In this document: positions 8,635-64,000 of the stretch, one piece after another
Numbering within the stretch: position 1 is the stretch's first letter
Layout: every line of letters begins with the position of its first letter
NCBI GenBank assembly: GCA_019448385.1
Contig: JAGTXO010000004.1
Location: forward strand, 1,302,001-1,366,000
Source of the DNA: Diacronema lutheri
Taxonomy: Eukaryota > Haptophyta > Pavlovophyceae > Pavlovales > Pavlovaceae
Length of the DNA stretch: 64,000 nt
Reading direction: 5' to 3'
The notes under the pieces: model-generated
Told to the model about the DNA's origin: nothing
Databases searched by the model: none
Seen by the model: only the letters and a program-made list of their open reading frames with translations
Program-made: the position numbers and the translations under genes

Positions 8635-9489
8635 ATGGACGGCGGCGGGGTCAAACTGCGCCCTGTGACGCTTCTCGACCTTGGAAACGACATCTTCATC
8701 GCGATCCTCGCACGCCTCTCCGACGCTGCGCTCGCCAATCTCCATGCTGTGGCGCGCGCGCTCCTCGCGCACCCGCTCATCGCTGAAGAGTGGCGCGCCC
8801 GCTGCGAGCGCGAGTGGCCGTCCACGCGGCTGCTCGCGGCGGTTGAAGCCGGACGCGCGCTGGACGCGCGCGCCCTTTTCGCGCGGCGCGCGCGCGCACG
8901 CCTGCCCGCATTGTGGGGCGCACACTCGCGCGGTCTCGCGCCGCCGCGCGGCTGCGCGAAGCCTGTACAGCTCGTCGCGCTCGTCGACGTGCACGTGCAG
9001 GGGCGCGCCGTGGCGTGCGCGCTCGTGCCCGGCGCGTGGGGCACAGTGCGCGCGGTGCAATGCGCGCCCTTTGAGCTCGCCCTCGAGCCCGAGAATGAGC
9101 CTACGCTCGCGGAGGCCATGATGGATGCGTGGGAGAGCGCGCAGCTCAACGGTGCGCACGCAGGCGCCGAGCCGAGCGCGGCGGACGCGCCCGCCGCGCG
9201 CGGGCTGCTGCTTGTCGAGCAGCGGCGCGCATGGGCGGCTGTGCAGGCGCTCTCGAGCCTGCGTATCACAGCCGACGCGCAGAAGGACCTCTACCCGATG
9301 CTGCCCGTGCTGCTGATCAAAGCGGCGACGCAAGACAAGCTCGACGGGCGCGACGTGTACGCCTGTCCCGTGTACAAGACGCAGTCGAGAGGGTCAACGT
9401 ACGTGTTCACCGTCGGGCTGCGCACAAAGGCGCCGTCGTCAAAGTGGATTCTCGCGGGCGTGTGCATGCTTCTCGACGTCGTCGAGTGA
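8635..9489 (+). CDS. F-box-like protein fused in frame to a dynein heavy-chain tail
   Basis: Open frame of 284 aa starting at ATG 8635. Residues about 12-60 (a leucine-rich stretch with DLGNDIFIAILARL, ending in REWP) look like an F-box, which in known proteins binds Skp1 in SCF ubiquitin ligases. Residues 61-216 are unrecognised. From K217 to the stop the protein is a near-identical copy of the final 68 residues of the axonemal dynein heavy chain encoded at 30566-46680 (its codons 46474-46680), in the same frame. Dynein homology starts abruptly at 9282/9283 and continues past the stop into dynein 3' flank, so it arrived by DNA insertion. The native C-terminus seems to lie at 10088-10600. The product may be a chimera or the remains of an inactivated gene. 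Expression cannot be judged from sequence. Confidence 0.65.
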   Translation: MDGGGVKLRPVTLLDLGNDIFIAILARLSDAALANLHAVARALLAHPLIAEEWRARCEREWPSTRLLAAVEAGRALDARALFARRARARLPALWGAHSRGLAPPRGCAKPVQLVALVDVHVQGRAVACALVPGAWGTVRAVQCAPFELALEPENEPTLAEAMMDAWESAQLNGAHAGAEPSAADAPAARGLLLVEQRRAWAAVQALSSLRITADAQKDLYPMLPVLLIKAATQDKLDGRDVYACPVYKTQSRGSTYVFTVGLRTKAPSSKWILAGVCMLLDVVE

Positions 9490-10087
9490 CCGGAAGTTCG
9501 CATGCCCGGGGGGTTGGCGTGCTCGGCCGGCGCTGGGCCGTGCCACGAGCAGTGTACGTACGGCTCACTCTCCAGTGTGGAGGGAACCAATGCGAGCCCC
9601 TCCGCCCCGCCCCCCCCCCCCAACACACACACACACACACAAGGTGTTTGGGACCGACCGCTCCCTCCCCCCAAGCTACCTTCAGGCGCTCCCTCCCTCC
9701 GGTTTTTTAGGCAGAGAGTTGTTTGGGGTCGCCCGCGACGAAGAAGGCTCGTGCGCTTGCCGCCTCGGGGCAAGTTGTTTGGGACCGACCGCTACGGATT
9801 TTATAGGCAGAGAGTTGTTTGGGGTCGCCCGCGACGACGCACGCCGAACGCACGCGCAGGCCCTGGCCGCGCCGACAACCACGCGCGCACGGCCTACGTT
9901 CGCCGCGTACACGGCCATGGGATCACGGGCGGCGACCTATTCGGGCATGGGAATTGCCCTGGCTAGCATTTGTTGCGTGCCGTGCTGTCCGACATCTGTG
10001 CGCAACGAAGCCTGCGCGCCTCGGCGGTACATTGGCACGAGCCGGCGAAGAAGCAAGAGGCGATAAGCACGCACCGCGTGCTGCTTG
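9283..10087 (+). mobile_element. Insertion carrying dynein tail, C/CA tract, tandem repeats and block X
   Basis: About 805 bases interrupt the F-box-like gene. In order: 9283-9605 duplicates dynein exon 15 and 3' flank (46474 onward); a C-run and (CA)n tract at 9606-9640; copies of the 103-bp repeat at about 9641-9835; then block X at 9836-10087, also found inverted at 48528-48785 and direct at 62107-62367. Removing 9283-10087 rejoins the F-box frame in phase with the downstream frame at 10088. No clear target-site duplication is visible. The stop codon of the chimera lies inside this segment. Confidence 0.8.
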
Positions 10088-10600
10088 TCGCTCGAGCTCT
10101 GCGCCGCGCCGCTCGAGGCGACCGGCGGGCAGGCGGACGGCTCGGGCTGTACGTGCCTCGTGCGCGTCTCGCAGCCGCGCGGCGCGCTGCGGCGCGCGAT
10201 CGGCGCGGCGGATGTGGCCGTGAGTGAGCACGTCGTCATTTCCGTCGCGCCCTTTGCCGCCGACGAGCCGGTGCCGTCGAGCGCAGGCGACGCGCACGCG
10301 CACCTGCCCGCGCACGCGCGCGCGCGGTTGCTGCCGACCTTGCGCGTGTGCATTGCGATCGAGCGGCGAGCGCTCTCGACGGCCGGGTGCAAGCGCGCGC
10401 GCGCGACCATCTCGTGGGTGCAGCTCGACTACGCCACGCTCGACGAGGCCACGTGCGCGTGCGACGGCGACCGGGCGCGTGACGACGCAACTCGGATGCG
10501 CCGGCGCGGCGCGCGTTGCGGCGGTGCGCCGACGGCGGAGCGCGCAAGGCTCGGGCGCGAGGCCGTCCGCGAGGCCCTTGGCGCGTGCATCTGGACGTGA
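10088..10600 (+). pseudogene. Displaced 3' part of the interrupted F-box-like gene
   Basis: Open frame of about 170 codons with no ATG at its start. It runs from SLELCAAPLEAT to an ACIWT end and stops at 10600. Its phase matches the codon phase at 9282 across the insertion, so I read it as the original C-terminal half of the F-box-like gene at 8635. The sequence is a plausible globular beta-rich domain (alternating hydrophobics such as VAVSEHVVISVAPF and LRVCIAIERR), but I do not recognise the family. It could still be expressed if the insertion is spliced out, for which I see no strong donor. Confidence 0.5.
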
Positions 10601-20554: not shown

Positions 20555-21440
20555 GGCTGCGCCCTCGCGCTCTGCTGGCAGCGCTCCGCGCGCCCCGCCG
20601 CCCCTGCCCATCGACTGCGCCGGCACCGCGAACAACGTACTCTTCGCCCCGGTCGGTGGGTTTGGGGGTGGCGGGGCGCGCGCGCACGGCCGCACGAGCG
20701 ACGGCGGCGTGGCCTTCTCTACGACGAAACCTTCGCTTGCGACGGCTGCGCCCTCGCGCTCTGATGGCCGCGCTCCGCGCGCCCCGCCGCCCCTGCCCAT
20801 CGACTGCGCCGGCACCGCGAACAACGTACTTTTCGCCCCGGTCGGTGGGTTTGGGGGCGGCGGGGCGCGCGCGCACGGCCGCACGAGCGACGGCGGCGTG
20901 GCCTTCTCTACGACGAAACCTTCGCTTGCGACGGCTGCGCCCTCGCGCTCTGATGGCCGCGCCCCGCGCGCCCCGCCGCCCCTGCCCATCGACTGCGCCG
21001 GCACCGCGAACAACGTACTTTTCGCCCCGGTCGGTGGGTTTGGGGGCGGCGGGGCGCGCGCGCACGGCCGCACGAGCGACGGCGGCGTGGCATTCTCTAC
21101 GACGAAACCTTCGCTTGCGACGGCTGCGCCCTCGCGCTCTGATGGCCGCGCTCCGCGCGCCCCGCCGCCCCTGCCCATCGACTGCGCCGGCACCGCGAAC
21201 AACGTACTTTTCGCCCCGGTCGGTGGGTTTGGGGGTGGCGGGGCGCGCGCGCACGGCCGCACGAGCGACGGCGGCGTGACCTTCTCTACGACGATACCTT
21301 CGCTTGCGACGGCTGCGCCCTCGCGCTCTGATGGCCGCGCTCCGCGCGCCCCGCCGCCCCTGCCCATCGACTGCGCCGGCACCACGAAACACACACATTT
21401 CGCCCCGGTCGGTGGGTTTGGGGGCGGCGGGGCGCGCGTG
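20555..21440. repeat. 189-bp tandem repeat array, about 4.7 copies
   Basis: Units begin at 20555, 20744, 20933, 21122 and 21311. The inner units differ by only a few bases; the outer units are more diverged. The unit is exactly 63 codons and is open in several frames. One minus-strand frame runs from ATG 21460 to a stop at 20390 and would give a 63-aa repeat protein (PPPPNPPTGAK, VPAQSMGRGGG). A plus frame is also open but lacks a clear ATG. I do not call a gene. Confidence 0.9.
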
Positions 21441-21756
21441 CGCGGCCACGCGGCCAGCATCGCGGCGCTTGCCACGCTGGCGGCGGGTGGCGGTGCGCTT
21501 CGCGGCGGTGGCAGGGGGCTGCGACGCGGCGGGGAGGGCGGCGGCTCGCTGGCGGCGGGCGTCGCGCTCTGCAGCGGCGGCGGGCGGCTTGGCGACGTGG
21601 CAGGCGGCGGCTCGGGGGTGGCGGTCGTCGTCGACGATCTTCGGGCCTCGGCGTGCGCGTGCGGGTCGGCCGGTGGTGTGGTTGACGGCGGCCACCGGTG
21701 CGGCGGCGCGCGGGCGGCGGCGCGCGGTGGCTAGGCGCGTGTGGGCCTTTGGGCCT

Positions 21757-45500: not shown

Positions 45501-46680
45501 AGGCGGACGACTTGTGCCGCGCGATCCTCGAGCTGCAGCCGCGCGGCGGTGGCTCGGCGTCGGGCCTCACGCTGCAGGAGAAGGTGAAGCGGATGCTGGA
45601 CGACATCGTGGAGAAGCTGCCCGAGCAATTGTCGAACGCCGAGCTCGAGGACCGCGTCACGATGGAGGATCGCACGCCGTACACAAACGTCTTCCTGCAG
45701 GAGGTGGACCGGATGAGCAAGCTCCTCTACGAGATGCGGCGCTCGCTGCACGAGCTCGACATGGGCTTGCGCGGCGACTTGTCCATGTCCGAGGCGATGG
45801 AGGTGCTCATGGACTCGCTCTTCGATGATCGCGTCCCCTCGCGCTGGGACACGCTCGCGTGGCCCTCGCTTCGGCCGCTCGGCAGCTGGCTGGCCAACAT
45901 GCTCGACCGCTACAAGCAGCTCCTCGAGTGGACGGCCGATATGAGCACGCCCAAGGTGCGCCGACCGGGCGCGCGCCCGCCTGCAAGGCGCGCGTGCTTC
46001 GCGCTCCGCGCGCGGCTTGCCTTTTCGCGCGTGAGCGCGGAGACGGCCTCACCCCGATTTCCTGCTCACCCTCCCTATCCTCCCCCCCTTCCCCCCCTTG
46101 CCTCGTGGCGCGCGCGCGCCACGCGGCGCGTGTAAGCAGGTCACGTGGATCTCCGGGCTGTTCAACCCGCAGGCGTTCCTCACAGCGGTGATGCAGGTTA
46201 CCGCGCGCAAAAACGAGTGGCCGCTCGACAAGCTCGCGATCGTCGCCGACGTGACGAAGCGTCTGCCCGAGGAGATCGAGGGAGCGACGCGCGACGGCGC
46301 GCACGTGCACGGTGTGTGCGGGTGCAGCTGCACGCATTGCGAGCGCGCGCGAGCGCGCGCAGCCCGCGTCGCGAGAGCTCACTCCATGCGCGCGCTCCTC
46401 CCCGCAAGCAGGCCTCTACATGGAGGGTGCGCGCTGGGACACGGGTACGGGTGCGCTCGAAGAGTCCTTCATGAAGGACCTCTACCCAATGCTGCCCGTG
46501 CTGCTGATCAAAGCGGCGACGCAAGACAAGCTCGACGGGCGCGACGTGTACGCCTGTCCCGTGTACAAGACGCAGTCGAGAGGGCCAACGTACGTGTTCA
46601 CCGTCGGGCTGCGCACAAAGGCGCCGTCGTCAAAGTGGATTCTCGCGGGCGTGTGCATGCTACTCGACGTCGTCGAGTGA
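30566..46680 (+). CDS. Axonemal dynein heavy chain, outer-arm beta-like
   Basis: Motor subunit of ciliary dynein. Fifteen exons: 30566-31319, 31670-31935, 32215-32319, 32475-32663, 32913-33074, 33254-33693, 33938-34075, 34236-34343, 34590-34856, 35008-35128, 35257-36455, 36550-45358, 45446-45955, 46140-46311 and 46412-46680. Total 4502 aa, the normal length; all phases match. The tail and linker occupy 1-1800. P-loops: AAA1 GPAGTGKT (about 1861), AAA2 GAAGAGKS (about 2144), AAA3 GGAGTAKT (about 2478) and AAA4 GVGGSGKQ (about 2823). The stalk coiled coil starts near 3084 with the microtubule-binding region after about 3160, and the C-terminal domain ends PSSKWILAGVCMLLDVVE. Intron 10 has a GC donor (AAG then GCAAGC). 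Intron 12 (87 nt) is in frame without stops. Intron 1 holds a C-run. The AAA core is one 8.8-kb exon. Beta-type (DNAH9/11/17-like) assignment rests on the tail and C-terminal motifs and is less certain. Confidence 0.95.
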
Positions 46681-46795
46681 CCAGGAGTTCGCATGCCCGG
46701 GGGGTTGGCGTGCTCGGCCGGCGCTGGGCCGTGCCACGAGCAGTGTACGTACGGCTCACTCCCCAGTGTGGAGGGAACCGATGCGAGCCCCCCCG

Positions 46796-46840
<45 letters not shown>

Positions 46841-46860
46841 ACACAAGGTGTTTGGGACCG
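46474..46860 (+). repeat. Dynein tail and 3' flank, source copy of the F-box insertion
   Basis: The last 69 codons of dynein exon 15, its stop, about 110 bases of 3' flank, a C-run (about 46791-46826) and a (CA)n tract are near-identical to 9283-9655. Here the coding part continues the functional dynein gene, so this is the original and 9283 the copy. Confidence 0.9.
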
Positions 46861-47195
46861 AGCTCCCTCCCTCCGGTTTTTTTAGGCAGAGAGTTGTTTG
46901 GGGTCGCCCGCGACGAAGAAGGCTCGTGCGCTTGCCGCCTACGGGGCAAGTTGTTTGGGACCGACCTCCCTCCCTCCGGATTTTATAGGCAGAGAGTTGT
47001 TTGGGGTCGCCCGCGACGAAGAAGGCTCGTGCGCTTGCCGCCTACGGGGCAAGGTGTTTGGGACCGACCTCCCTCCCGCCCGTCGTGCACAGAGATAATC
47101 TCCTGGGGAGACTATCTCCCGGGGAGACTATCTCCAGCCGCCATAAGCTGGATCCCTCCCTCCGGATTTTATAGGCAGAGAGTTGTTCGGCGCGT
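46860..47195 (+). repeat. 103-bp tandem repeats, forward
   Basis: Units start AGGCAGAGAGTTGTTTGGGG at 46884 and 46987, with a partial third near 47173 after a short insert. Each unit has two related halves (GAGTTGTTTGGGG and CAAGTTGTTTGGGACC) and a TTTTATAGG junction. On the other strand this reads CCTATAAAA, which looks like a TATA box. Confidence 0.85.
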
Positions 47196-47207
47196 CTAGA
47201 TTCCGGA

Positions 47208-47370
47208 GAGCAGAAGCGTCGCCGTGATCCTCGCGAGTGAGCGCAATGGCGCGCGTGCCGCGCCCGCCACGCATGTCCTAAACACCATCACATCCGCCCG
47301 TGCCCGCGCGACGCACGCCGAACGCACGCGCAGGCCCTGGCCGCGCCGACGACCACGCGCGCGCGGGGCG
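47208..47370 (+). repeat. Repeat-family arm and partial block X, forward
   Basis: The stretch GAGCAGAAGCGTCGCCGTG onward matches 62012-62165 in the same orientation with few differences. It includes the start of block X (GACGCACGCCGAACGCACGC), then diverges at about 47370 into a captured gene fragment. Confidence 0.8.
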
Positions 47371-47437
47371 ACCGCTCGCGTTCCCGGCCGCGCAGCCGGC
47401 TGCGACGCTGATGATGACGCACACGACACGGACGGCG

Positions 47438-47870
47438 CAGACGAAGCTCACCTGCCGGCCGGGGACTTTGATGGCATTGATCTCGCCGAGCGCCTGGCGA
47501 CGAGCCTCCAAGGTGAGGTCGACGGCGCGTACGTACGCTTTGAACCGGGCACCATCCGCTTGGCCGACCTGAACCTCTTGCCAGACGAGCCGCTCGTCTG
47601 CCGGCAAACGACCCTCGTGAGCTGCTCATGCCAATACTTCATCTCGCGCGGGTGAGCAGCCGTGCGCAGCCGCGCGCAGGTGCGCAGGCGCAGCGCTGCA
47701 GCGCTCGCACTTCTGATCCACCGCCTGCCCGGCATCCGCGCGCGCCCAGCCGCTTCATGCGCAGGGCTCCGCGCAGGCACATGCTCGCCGTGCGCTTCAA
47801 GTACCAGCTCGACAACCGCATCATCGACCCGCTCATGGCAGAGGACTTCGCTCTAAGCTGGCGTGTGCGG
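47438..47870 (+). pseudogene. Gene fragment with two exon-like pieces, unidentified
   Basis: An exon-like open segment (about 47438-47651, containing GDFDGIDLAERLATSLQGE and RLADLNLLPDEPLVC) ends at a canonical GTGAGC donor. About 115 bases later an acceptor (GCTTCATGCGCAG) opens a second piece in matching phase 2 (HMLAVRFKYQLDNRIIDPLM). Neither has an ATG start or a proper end, and both are flanked by mobile repeats. It appears to be a fragment of a host gene captured by the repeat family. I do not recognise the parent. Confidence 0.45.
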
Positions 47871-47942
47871 CTGGATCAACGGGCGCGTCGCCGATCTGCG
47901 CTTCCGGCCTCGCCAGCAGGCGCCTGGCAGCGGCAGTTCGAT

Positions 47943-48470
47943 CCCGCTCACCGCGGCTGAGCGCGAGCAGGCGATCATGAGCCAGCTGCGCCCATTGGCG
48001 CGGCTGTGCGCGAAGTCGGAGAAGCACACGACTGGCCTCATCACCGTCAGCCGCACCACGTCGACACGTCGTGCTCGCGACCGGCATCACTACGCTGAAC
48101 CCGCGCAAGCGGCCGGCCTCTGCAGCTGTGGAGGGCATCCCTAACGCCCCCCCCCCCCCCCCCCCTCGACGAGCTCGCTAAGCGCACCACTGGGGCCCAG
48201 CAGAAGAAGCGCAAGCCAAACGTTGGCGCGCCGCGCAAGGCCAAGGGAGAGAGCGAGCGCGGTCGCAGGTCGAGCGCGGGCGCGGGCGCTGGATCGAGCG
48301 CGGGGGGGGGTCGAGCGCGGGCGCGGGTTCGAGCGCGGGCGCGGATTCCAACGCGGGTGCGGGGTCGCGGCGCGGGCGCGGGCGCGAGCGTGGGGCGGGC
48401 GCGGATGCGGGCGCGGACGCGGAGGCAGAGGCGCGACTACTGGCACGGCGTAAACACCAATGCAGGCTCT
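47943..48470 (+). pseudogene. Degenerate, inverted copy of the repeat-family ORF
   Basis: From CCGCTCACCGCGGCTGAGCG this matches the minus-strand ORF at 62444-62938, but is frameshifted and holds a C-run (about 48147-48168) replacing several codons. The Arg/Gly/Ala-Ser C-terminal low-complexity tail is still visible. It cannot encode the full protein. Confidence 0.75.
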
Positions 48471-48479
48471 TGTATATGA

Positions 48480-48785
48480 ACGTTCAATCATGCATCGCGG
48501 AAGTGGAGGGCATCTGAACTTCCCCACCAACAAGCAGCACGCGGTGTGTGCTTGTCGCCTCTTGCTTCTTCGCCGGCTCGTGCCAATGTACCGCCGAGGC
48601 GCGCAGGCTTCGTTGCGCACAGATGTCGGACAGCACGGCACGCAACAAATGCTAGCCAGGGCAATTCCCATGCCCGAATAGGTCGCCGCCCGTGATCCCA
48701 TGGCCGTGTACGCGGCGAACGTGCGCCGTGCGCGCGTGGTCATCGGCGCGGCCAGGGCCTGCGCGTGCCTTCGGCGTGCGTCGTC
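48480..48785 (-). repeat. Block X, inverted copy
   Basis: Reverse-complement copy of 62107-62430 and, for its outer 258 bases, of 9836-10087. It lies between the degenerate ORF and the inverted 103-bp repeats. Confidence 0.85.
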
Positions 48786-49008
48786 GCGGGCGACCCCAAA
48801 CAACTCTCTGCCTATAAAATCCGTAGCGGTCGGTCCCAAACAACTTGCCCCGTAGGCGGCAAGCGCACGAGCCTTCTTCGTCGCGGGCGACCCCAAACAA
48901 CTCTCTGCCTATAAAATCCGGAGGGAGGGAGGTCGGTCCCAAACAACTTGCCCCGTAGGCGGCAAGCGCACGAGCCTTCTTCGTCGCGGGCGACGCCAAA
49001 CAACTCTG
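48786..49008 (-). repeat. 103-bp tandem repeats, inverted
   Basis: About two units on the minus strand (CCCCAAACAACTCTCTGCC, CCTATAAAATCCG), running into the foldback end. Same family as 46860-47195. Confidence 0.85.
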
Positions 49009-49107
49009 TGCGTGCGTGCGATCCGAAATTCGGACCGCAAGTATTGCGCAGTCTTGCGATCCGAATTTCGGGACGCAGCGAAGTTCCGGAGTTCGGACTT
49101 CAATTCA
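49009..49107 (+). repeat. About 100-bp foldback end, copy 1
   Basis: Contains an internal hairpin: 49023-49041 pairs with 49053-49071 (CCGAAATTCGGACCGCAAG against CTTGCGATCCGAATTTCGG). The whole block is repeated in inverted orientation at 61898-62000, and its first bases reappear at the window end (about 63985-64000). Confidence 0.85.
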
Positions 49108-49114
49108 ACTGGGC

Positions 49115-49300
49115 AGCGAGTTATTCGCGGTCGCCCGCGACGAAGAAGGCTCGTGCGCTTGCCGCCTACGGGGCAAGTTGTTTGGGACCGACCGCTCCCT
49201 CCCTCCGGTTTTTATAGGCAGAGAGTTGTTTGGGGTCGCCCGCGACGAAGAAGGCTCGTGTGCTTGCCGCTTTACGGGGAAAGTGGATTTGGCCAGCGAA
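49115..49300 (+). repeat. 103-bp tandem repeats, forward, upstream of coiled-coil gene
   Basis: Nearly two units in forward orientation. They abut the unexplained 5' region of the next gene and could supply its promoter. Confidence 0.8.
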
Positions 49301-61853: not shown

Positions 61854-61897
61854 GGCCGACGCCGAGGAGACGAGAGAAGCTGCTCCTGTCGAGCAGA

Positions 61898-62000
61898 TGA
61901 ATTGAAGTCCGAACTCCGGAACTTCGCTGCGTCCCGAAATTCGGATCGCAAGACTGCGCAATATTTGCGGTCCGAATTTCGGATCGCACGCACGCACACG
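61898..62000 (-). repeat. About 100-bp foldback end, copy 2 (inverted)
   Basis: Reverse complement of 49009-49107 with few differences. The internal hairpin arms (61934-61952 and about 61964-61982) are conserved. It lies directly upstream of NDUFV2. Confidence 0.85.
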
Positions 62001-62011
62001 CGCAGCGAGTC

Positions 62012-62430
62012 TTAGAGCAGAAGCGTCGCCGTGATCCTCGCGAGTGAGCGCAATGGCGCGCGTGCCGCGCCCGCCACGCATGCCCTGAACACCCTCACAC
62101 CCGCCCACGCCCGCGCGACGCACGCCGAACGCACGCGCAGGCCCTGGCCGTGCCGACGACTGCGCGCGCGCGGCCTACATTCGCCGCGTACACGGCCATG
62201 GGATCACGGGCGGCGACCTATTCGGGCATGGGCATTGCCCTGGCTAGCTTTTGTTGCGTGCCGTGCTGTCCGACATCTGTGCGCAACGAAGCCTGCGCGC
62301 CTCGGCGGTACATTGGCACGAGCCGGCGAAGAAGCAAGAGGCGACAAGCACACACCGCGTGCTGCTTGTTGGTGGGGAAGTTCAGATGCCCTCCACTTCC
62401 GCGACGCATGATTGAACGTTCATACAAGAG
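62012..62430 (+). repeat. Repeat-family arm and block X, forward
   Basis: 62012-62165 matches 47208-47370. 62107-62367 matches 9836-10087. The whole to 62430 matches the inverted copy at 48480-48785. This is the longest intact version and probably the 3' region of the element ORF. Confidence 0.85.
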
Positions 62431-62443
62431 CCTGCATTCGTGT

Positions 62444-63667
62444 TTACGCCGTGCCAGTCGTCACGCCTCTGCCTCCGCGTCCGCGCCCGCATCCGCGCCC
62501 GCCCCCACGCTCGCGCCCGCGCCCGCGCCGCGACCCCGCACCCGCGTTGGAATCCGCGCCCGCGCTCGAACCCGCGCCCGCGCTCGACCCCCCCCCCGCG
62601 CTCGATCCAGCGCCCGCGCCCGCGCTCGACCTGCGTCCGCGCTCGCTCTCTCCCTTGGCCTTGCGCGGCGCGCCAACGTTTGGCTTGCGCTTCTTCTGCT
62701 GGGCCCCAGTGGTGCGCTTAGCGAGCTCGTCGATGTGAGGGATGCCCTCCACAGCTGCAGAGGCCGGCCGCTTGCGCGGGTTCAGCGTAGTGATGCCGGT
62801 CGCAAGGTGGACGTGGTTGCGGATGACGGTGATGAGGCCAGTCGTGTGCTTCTCCGACTTCGCGCACAGCCGCGCCAATGGGCGCAGCTGGCTCATGATC
62901 GCCTGCTCGCGCTCAGCCGCGGTGAGCGGGGTCACCTGCTGCAGCGCCTCCGTCGGGTGACGCGGGTTGTGGTGGAGCGCGCCGTGGATGATCACCCAGC
63001 CGTCGGTCGACTCCTCCAGGAGCAAGAACATGCCGCACTTGGTCTCGGACGTGATCTCGAACTTGATCCTCGTCGCGCGCTTCCCTGTGCTCTTGGCCTC
63101 GCGCACCGAGGCGTTGTACGAGCAGTAAAGACCCTGGCGCGCGCCACGCGCCTCGGTCGGCTTTTGCGAGCTCGACAGGTAGGTGTCGTGGCCCTGCTGC
63201 CTGAAAAACGTGCGGAGCGCGGCCGTAGCGCCGGCGAGAGCAGGCCACGGCCCCTGCGGCACGTCGTTCCACCGCGGATCTGTCACGGAGGTCCAATGTC
63301 GCTTGGCCCGCCGATTGTCGAGCGCGATCGCCTCGCGCGTGCGGCGCGTGTCCAGCGAGCTGCTAGCGTCGCCCTGCTCACGCGGCGGGCAATCAGCGGG
63401 CGCCGTACGCGGCGCTGCGCCTGCCCGAACGCCCGGCGCAGCGAAGTCGGGCGCCGAGGCGCCTGCCGCAGGCGCACGAGACGCAGCCGCACCTTCGGCC
63501 CCTCCCACGCAGCCGGTCGTGACCCCGCCCACACGGCCGAGCTGCGCCCCTGACTTGGAACCAAAGTTGCCCGGCAGTCTGCTCGGCGGCGCGTCGTCTT
63601 CGCCATCCTGCCCATCGAGCCCGCCGTCGACGTGTCTGCCGCCGCCACGTGTGAACTCGTCACGCAT
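62444..63667 (-). CDS. Repeat-element ORF, zinc-finger-like with Arg/Gly-rich tail
   Basis: Open frame of 407 aa from ATG 63667. The N-terminal 150 residues are disordered. The middle (about 165-245) holds GLYCSYNASVREAK, then TSETKCGMFLLLEES, then WVIIHGALHHNPRHP. This C..C..HH-x3-H arrangement after a Trp-containing strand resembles the WRKY/GCM1-like zinc finger of FAR1/MULE-type transposase proteins. The match is by pattern only. A helical segment (TAAEREQAIMSQLRPLARL) and a basic, Ser/Gly/Arg-rich tail follow. No catalytic DDE domain is present, so the protein may be an accessory DNA-binding factor of the element or a truncated transposase. It is the intact copy of the degenerate ORF at 47943-48470. 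Confidence 0.5.
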   Translation of the reverse strand: MRDEFTRGGGRHVDGGLDGQDGEDDAPPSRLPGNFGSKSGAQLGRVGGVTTGCVGGAEGAAASRAPAAGASAPDFAAPGVRAGAAPRTAPADCPPREQGDASSSLDTRRTREAIALDNRRAKRHWTSVTDPRWNDVPQGPWPALAGATAALRTFFRQQGHDTYLSSSQKPTEARGARQGLYCSYNASVREAKSTGKRATRIKFEITSETKCGMFLLLEESTDGWVIIHGALHHNPRHPTEALQQVTPLTAAEREQAIMSQLRPLARLCAKSEKHTTGLITVIRNHVHLATGITTLNPRKRPASAAVEGIPHIDELAKRTTGAQQKKRKPNVGAPRKAKGESERGRRSSAGAGAGSSAGGGSSAGAGSSAGADSNAGAGSRRGRGRERGGGRGCGRGRGGRGVTTGTA

Positions 63668-63689
63668 GTCTGCCGCCGCCAAGTGTGAG

Positions 63690-64000
63690 CTCGGTCCAAC
63701 TCTGCCTATAAAAAGCGCCGTTAGTATTCATATATAAAAACCGGAGGGAGGGAGCGGTCGGTCCCAAACATCTTTCCCCGTAGGCGGCAAGCGCACGAGC
63801 CTTCTTAGTCGCGGGCGACCTTGCGGTCGGTCGCAAACAACTCGTAGGCGGCAAGCGCACGAGCCTTCTTCGTCGCGGGCGACCCCAAACAAGTCCTCTC
63901 TCTGCCTATAAAAACTGGAGAAATGGAGCGGTCGGTCTCAAACAATTTGCCCCGGCGACCCCAAACAACTCCTGCGTGTGCGTGGTGCGATCCGAAATTC
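63690..64000 (-). repeat. 103-bp tandem repeats, inverted, at window end
   Basis: About three units with CCTATAAAA motifs. A separate AAGCGCCGTTAGTATT (about 63715-63730) matches the end of the 18584-20390 transposon with one change. The final bases begin another foldback end, so the element continues beyond the window. Confidence 0.8.

Follow-up and report, generated by a model that had tools for sequence, protein, structure and literature searches.

An in-frame duplication of a dynein exon tail beside a Mutator-like element in the haptophyte Diacronema lutheri

Templated insertion at double-strand breaks fills the break with a short stretch whose template lies at a distant site, with slight or absent microhomology at the patch ends. 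Template switching of the FoSTeS type is among the processes named in PMC8277862. The structure of Mutator-like transposons (MULEs) and of Pack-MULEs is treated in PMC4858842. Here we describe a patch of 805 bp (9283-10087) in Diacronema lutheri, in which the end of a dynein exon, a tandem repeat and a piece of a MULE stand together inside an unrelated open reading frame (ORF), and its donor lies 37 kb downstream on the same chromosome. All positions refer to the window, the whole stretch of 64,000 nucleotides that was analysed, which lies on contig 75. The genome-wide searches covered an assembly of 43,492,796 bases in 103 contigs.

The dynein tail, its copy and the receiving reading frame

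An earlier note on this DNA had claimed that a dynein exon tail and about 110 bases of its 3' flank recur 37 kb away, and this recurrence is real. The alignment of 9283-9489 with 46474-46680 is free of gaps and shows 3 differences in 207 bases, at 9297 (silent), 9394 (proline in the donor, serine in the copy) and 9471 (silent). The copied coding part comprises the last 207 bases of the exon, that is, 68 codons plus a TGA that ends both the donor and the copy (9487-9489 in the latter). The flank after the stop differs at 4 of its first 101 bases (5/116 when the alignment reaches the C run). Beyond this flank the insert passes into a C/CA run that differs in length from that of the donor, then into 103-bp repeats, and then into a segment that the note had termed block X. 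That both copies run on into the same 103-bp repeats was also confirmed. BLAST recovered the insert in two pieces, 46473-47019 against 9282-9837 (89% over 577 columns, 51 of them gap columns) and 48931-48530, reversed, against 9689-10088 (97.5% over 402 columns). The whole-genome E-values of the insert to these two donor stretches were 1.1e-224 and 1.8e-192, so that chance resemblance is excluded. It was noted that a 30-base stretch of the insert, at about 9658-9687, is missing from the present donor.

Table 1. Features of the recipient locus, the insert, the donor locus and the neighbouring element copy (positions in the window)
Feature	Position	Strand	Evidence
Recipient ORF, 5' part, 216 codons	8635..9282	+	Open frame; GC3-GC2 periodicity in frame 0
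Copy of the dynein C-terminal tail, fused in frame	9283..9489	+	204/207 bases identical to 46474-46680
Copy of the dynein 3' flank and C/CA run	9490..9639	+	4 differences in the first 101 bases, then differences in run length
About two 103-bp repeat units; template change within about 9710-9791	9640..9837	+	Left- and right-array markers
MULE-end piece (block X), 263 bp, cut off within the element	9826..10088	+	7 substitutions against the donor right end
Probable former 3' end of the recipient ORF, now cut off (170 codons and stop), in phase with 8635-9282	10088..10600	+	No earlier stop; GC3-GC2 periodicity
Donor exon, the last of a dynein heavy chain of axonemal type	46412..46680	+	Dynein_C, E 7.1e-24; axonemal chains to E 4.3e-28
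103-bp repeat array downstream of dynein	46844..47079	+	Tandem Repeats Finder 46844-47077, 2.3 copies, 96% matches
End fragment (73 bp) of another inverted-repeat element, within the 103-bp array	47080..47152		Inverted pairs elsewhere
Donor MULE body, without left terminus	47188..48792	+	94% to the 1,904-bp copies L035-L038
Inverted 103-bp repeats within the MULE right end	48781..49011	-	48828-49011 98.4% alike to 46886-47069 inverted
Donor MULE right terminal piece	49010..49111	-	95% alike to the end of L035; one mismatch in the terminal motif
103-bp repeat outside the MULE	49112..49292	+	Sequence match in the window
Second MULE copy, 61894 to 64081 (end beyond the window; coordinate in locus L046)	61894..64000		Both ends and 9-base flanks

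The direction of copying was examined through the dynein homology. The donor exon remains open to its stop and matched 60 distinct sequences among the solved structures (E up to 1), and the best of these, 9e5c_7b, spans all 88 residues of the exon and reaches its own last residue. At the single amino-acid difference, the donor and the two solved chains displayed read RGP, whereas the copy reads RGS. Since solved axonemal dyneins share this C-terminus, dynein is the source. For the reverse reading, in which the ORF always possessed this end and dynein acquired it, no support was found, and the homology contradicts it: axonemal dyneins of other organisms have the same C-terminus, and the donor exon resembles Dynein_C upstream of the copied part as well. 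We consider it almost certainly wrong. Searching the genome with the exon and its flank returned at least five matches, namely the donor, the insert and three others on contig 36 that are 73-80% alike, two of which likewise include sequence upstream of the copied part. The further captured dynein copies for which a genome search had been proposed were thus not seen among the matches listed.

The fused product had been described as an F-box-like frame that continues unshifted to the dynein stop. The frame and the stop hold, with 216 recipient codons leading through the dynein codons to the TGA, and the prior for an in-frame fusion is 1 in 3. The F-box identity did not hold up, being without support from Pfam, from solved structures or from a genome-wide search for F-box-like sequences. 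Three overlapping recipient stretches gave no match to the Pfam F-box family at E up to 10, and the recipient gene is absent among the at least 89 F-box-like (PF12937) places listed across the genome. Of those places, 45 were marked as over the cut-off; as a control, the same search gave a signal in 3 of 14 genomes, none over the cut-off. A structure of the chimera predicted from a single sequence has three N-terminal helices, but at a mean pLDDT of 42.9 it is too poor to be relied on. Paralogues of the recipient were sought in the genome without a convincing result, the best match other than the ORF itself having E 1.52 with the 5' part and E 0.083 with the 3' part. Against Pfam, the chimera matched Dynein_C (E 7.6e-15) over residues 211-280, corresponding to positions 230-309 of 309, the last part of the profile. 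The ORF/dynein-tail chimera may give a new protein end.

The sequence on the far side of the insert carries a coding signal in the same phase. The GC3-GC2 periodicity of frame 0 was reached by 0 of 5000 base shuffles for 8635-9282 and likewise for 10088-10597; when the halves of the latter were taken separately, the counts were 0/5000 and, for the second half, 3/5000. Of the six frames, frame 0 reached the highest codon score, with 0.105 per codon in the left part and 0.113 in the right part, values far under the 0.598 of a dynein exon, which was itself part of the training set. The other forward frames scored between -0.42 and -0.96, and one reverse frame of the left part came close (-0.077). 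Codon-score windows fell below zero at 8875 (-0.21) and in the last stretch from 10435 (-0.17 and -0.27). The coding signal for continuity of the recipient is moderate. The two flanking parts agree in phase once the insert is left out, so that the patch probably interrupted an ORF of about 386 codons; it would have cut off the last 170 of these, for which 68 dynein codons now substitute. We infer both the insertion and the phase from homology and coding signal, and a coding phase that appears to continue from 9282 to 10088 is as a clean insertion predicts. It was also noted that nine GT/AG pairs could splice the insert out in frame, which is proof of nothing.

Block X and the 103-bp repeats

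Block X belongs to a Mutator-like transposon, of which it forms one end. The most complete copies fetched are 1,904 bp long (L035-L038), and in L035 the inverted repeats measure 292 bp and are 98.6% identical. Eight copies (L035-L042) were inspected for target duplications, and perfect 9-bp duplications were found at L035, L036 and L037, the copies with both termini exact; L038-L042 each showed one terminus by the exact pattern. Two longer relatives of the same layout, L041 and L042, lie on contigs 78 and 53. For L041, 30 ORFs are listed, and five were checked against Pfam; one contains the MULE transposase domain PF10551 (E 8.2e-17) while the other four had no match; the family may thus include autonomous members. 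A literature search found no earlier report of Mutator-like elements in Pavlovales, which is weak evidence, and the family is described here for this haptophyte genome.

The copies in the window are internally deleted and carry the local 103-bp tandem repeat. Block X had been placed at the far end of the insert and also at 48.5 kb and 62.1 kb. Its presence at these sites was borne out, with an orientation and setting that differ between them. At 48.5 kb it lies in reverse orientation relative to the insert, and its outer side borders on the same 103-bp repeat, whereas at 62.1 kb it has the orientation of the insert and its outer side is an ordinary MULE end without the repeat. The flanks of the 62-kb copy, CCTGTCGAG and CCTATCGAG, are alike at 8 of 9 positions, and 103-bp repeats occur inside its right end at 63733-63954. 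It shares the 103-bp repeats and the right terminal piece with the donor MULE, although the two bodies represent different forms of deletion. The MULE body relative to the right-end repeats stands in opposite orientation at 62 kb compared with the donor. Sequence comparison suggests that neighbouring MULEs exchanged ends.

The 103-bp repeat was not seen as a genome-wide family: at least 13 matches were recorded, all on one contig and within about 54 kb. Other repeats were encountered in the window. The element whose end matches 47080-47152 has inverted end pairs 3-4 kb apart on contigs C77, C76, C33, C13, C9 and C79, and its inverted repeats measure 352 bp and are 98% alike at two of its loci (L043 and L044). 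A further tandem repeat occupies 20555-21447, with a unit of 189 bp, 4.7 copies and 97% matches.

Templates and ends of the insert

The order of parts differs between the donor and the insert. The donor locus reads dynein, forward 103-bp repeats, MULE and inverted 103-bp repeats, while in the insert dynein and the forward repeats are followed by the far MULE end, which is reversed in the donor. Accordingly, two donor stretches can be distinguished, the first running forward from 46474 to 46.89-46.96 kb and the second running reversed from 48.90-48.83 kb to 48530, joined to each other inside a 103-bp unit. Markers separate the two arrays: CCGG(T)nAGGCAG, at 9699 in the insert, recurs nowhere in the window but in the left donor array (46873), and GACCGCTACGG..., at 9787, nowhere but in the right one (48811, minus strand). 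The change of template lies inside a 103-bp repeat unit.

The variants of the MULE part point to the same donor end. The block X piece has 7 substitutions against the donor right end and 10 against the 62-kb copy. Nine loci were tried in a variant alignment, and L040, L041, L042 and L045 were left out of it because none of them matched over 200 bases. Three variants, including one additional base, are exclusive to the insert and the donor right end and absent from the other six aligned copies. The junction of repeat and MULE is also common only to these two. At two adjacent bases of the MULE part the insert agrees with the 62-kb copy and not with the donor, and the source may therefore be an older or gene-converted form.

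The insert ends inside the dynein exon on the left and inside the MULE on the right, about 260 bases inward of the donor junction between MULE end and repeat. A 20-base MULE terminal motif, searched across the whole window with up to 3 mismatches, matched at 49092 and 61894 and nowhere near 8-11 kb. Against the 1,904-bp MULE, the recipient locus matched at 9826-10088 with a short inverted-repeat echo at 9893-9826; the other matches outside the donor and the 62-kb copy were weak (E 1.6e-5 or worse), none of them within 8-11 kb. No target duplication was found at the insert; the longest word common to its two flanks of 20 bases has 4 bases and lies away from the junctions.

These ends bear on the claim that a composite repeat family had transduplicated the exon. 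A mobile element does participate, in that the insert includes a MULE end; transduplication is not supported, given breakpoints in mid-exon and mid-MULE, a repeat that appears to be local, and the failure to find a terminus, a target duplication or, among the matches listed, a second insert. Classic MULE transduplication, in which the dynein tail was captured between MULE termini as in a Pack-MULE, inserted into the ORF and then deprived of both ends, could draw on the facts that the block X family consists of genuine MULEs with target duplications of 9 bp, that MULEs are known to capture gene pieces (among the cases in PMC4858842) and that, at the 62-kb copy, 103-bp repeats can sit inside a MULE. 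However, a gene fragment between both MULE termini, as in a Pack-MULE, was not found at the insert, the dynein tail of the donor sits outside the MULE, only one insert is present among the matches listed, and the coding phase across the insert allows little later loss of ends. We therefore regard this route as quite unlikely. A retrocopy was also considered and rejected; repeat and MULE DNA from beyond the gene is present in the insert, which indicates a DNA copy.

Origin of the patch and comparison with known systems

We consider it likely that the patch was copied into the unrelated ORF by repair of a break, or at a stalled replication fork, with template switching and not by transposition. 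The repair pathway and the break itself are inferred. Synthesis across a break in the ORF between 9282 and 10088 would have started within the last exon of dynein and proceeded through its 3' flank into the 103-bp repeats. Synthesis would then have resumed on the inverted 103-bp array beyond the resident MULE, run into the MULE end and halted inside the element, after which the end would have been rejoined. Visible microhomology does not exceed 1 bp at either side, a value that is no measure of the actual microhomology as target bases may have been lost. For the second half an equally possible course is that the donor MULE was then inverted and the patch is a straight copy; the donor MULE stands between inverted 103-bp arrays and so may have stood inverted.

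The same anatomy would be expected from the integration of a released DNA fragment. Such a fragment, produced by aberrant excision or breakage of the MULE, would have been ligated into the break in the ORF and the donor restored from the sister. The same near-blunt junctions are expected, and the donor MULE is indeed rearranged and without its left terminus. This course, for which no positive evidence was found, requires an inverted donor form and its later restoration, and we judge it unlikely. A broader and more speculative proposal is that the MULE flips between its arrays and acts as an invertible, break-prone module that spreads exon ends without transposing them, the chimera being expressed and retained; this we hold to be a decidedly long shot.

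Insert and donor diverge by about 2.5% (3/207, 4/101 and 7/~262, with runs and 103-bp repeats left out). The event had been called recent, which holds only in a relative sense: with the repeats and runs set aside, about 570 bases contain 14 substitutions. In Emiliania huxleyi, a mutation rate of 5.55e-10 per site is given in PMC7486954; if this rate is transferable and no gene conversion took place, an age on the order of 2e7 cell generations would follow. The duplication thus appears fairly young. The same divergence bears on an assembly artefact that joined the two loci, for which the repeats and long C runs present here could speak: the copies differ at about 2.5% of compared sites, and the D. 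lutheri NIVA-4/92 assembly was built, according to PMC8379373, from PacBio subreads with an N50 of 23 kb at about 315-fold coverage with Illumina polishing, a read length that would span 805 bp. An artefact is very improbable.

The locus may be set beside three described systems. With Pack-MULEs and Pack-TIR elements it shares a MULE-family element, a host gene copied at the DNA level, a chimera with a host ORF and a donor on the same chromosome. It differs from those of plants, and from the animal cases presented in PMC8277862, in that the copied piece of the gene is situated outside the MULE end and that neither termini nor a target duplication were found. The transposition-independent gap filling that PMC8277862 describes for animal Pack-TIR elements likewise has a donor on the same chromosome, a single copy and little microhomology. 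As with Mutator-like elements in general (Pfam PF10551), the family has 292-bp inverted repeats, 9-bp target duplications and a transposase in a longer relative, whereas the copies in the window have internal deletions and contain the local tandem repeat of 103 bp. The resemblance to templated insertion and FoSTeS lies in two inverted donor stretches joined at a repeat, a distant source and a donor that is still present; the difference is that here the end product alone is seen, and that it involves a coding frame and a possible new protein end. The in-frame exon-tail duplication beside a MULE is a true and clean example of a kind already known. It documents the shuffling of an exon tail clearly, in the compact genome of a haptophyte, and it distinguishes between two routes that tend to be conflated, namely transposons that carry genes and the copying of genes that adjoin transposons.
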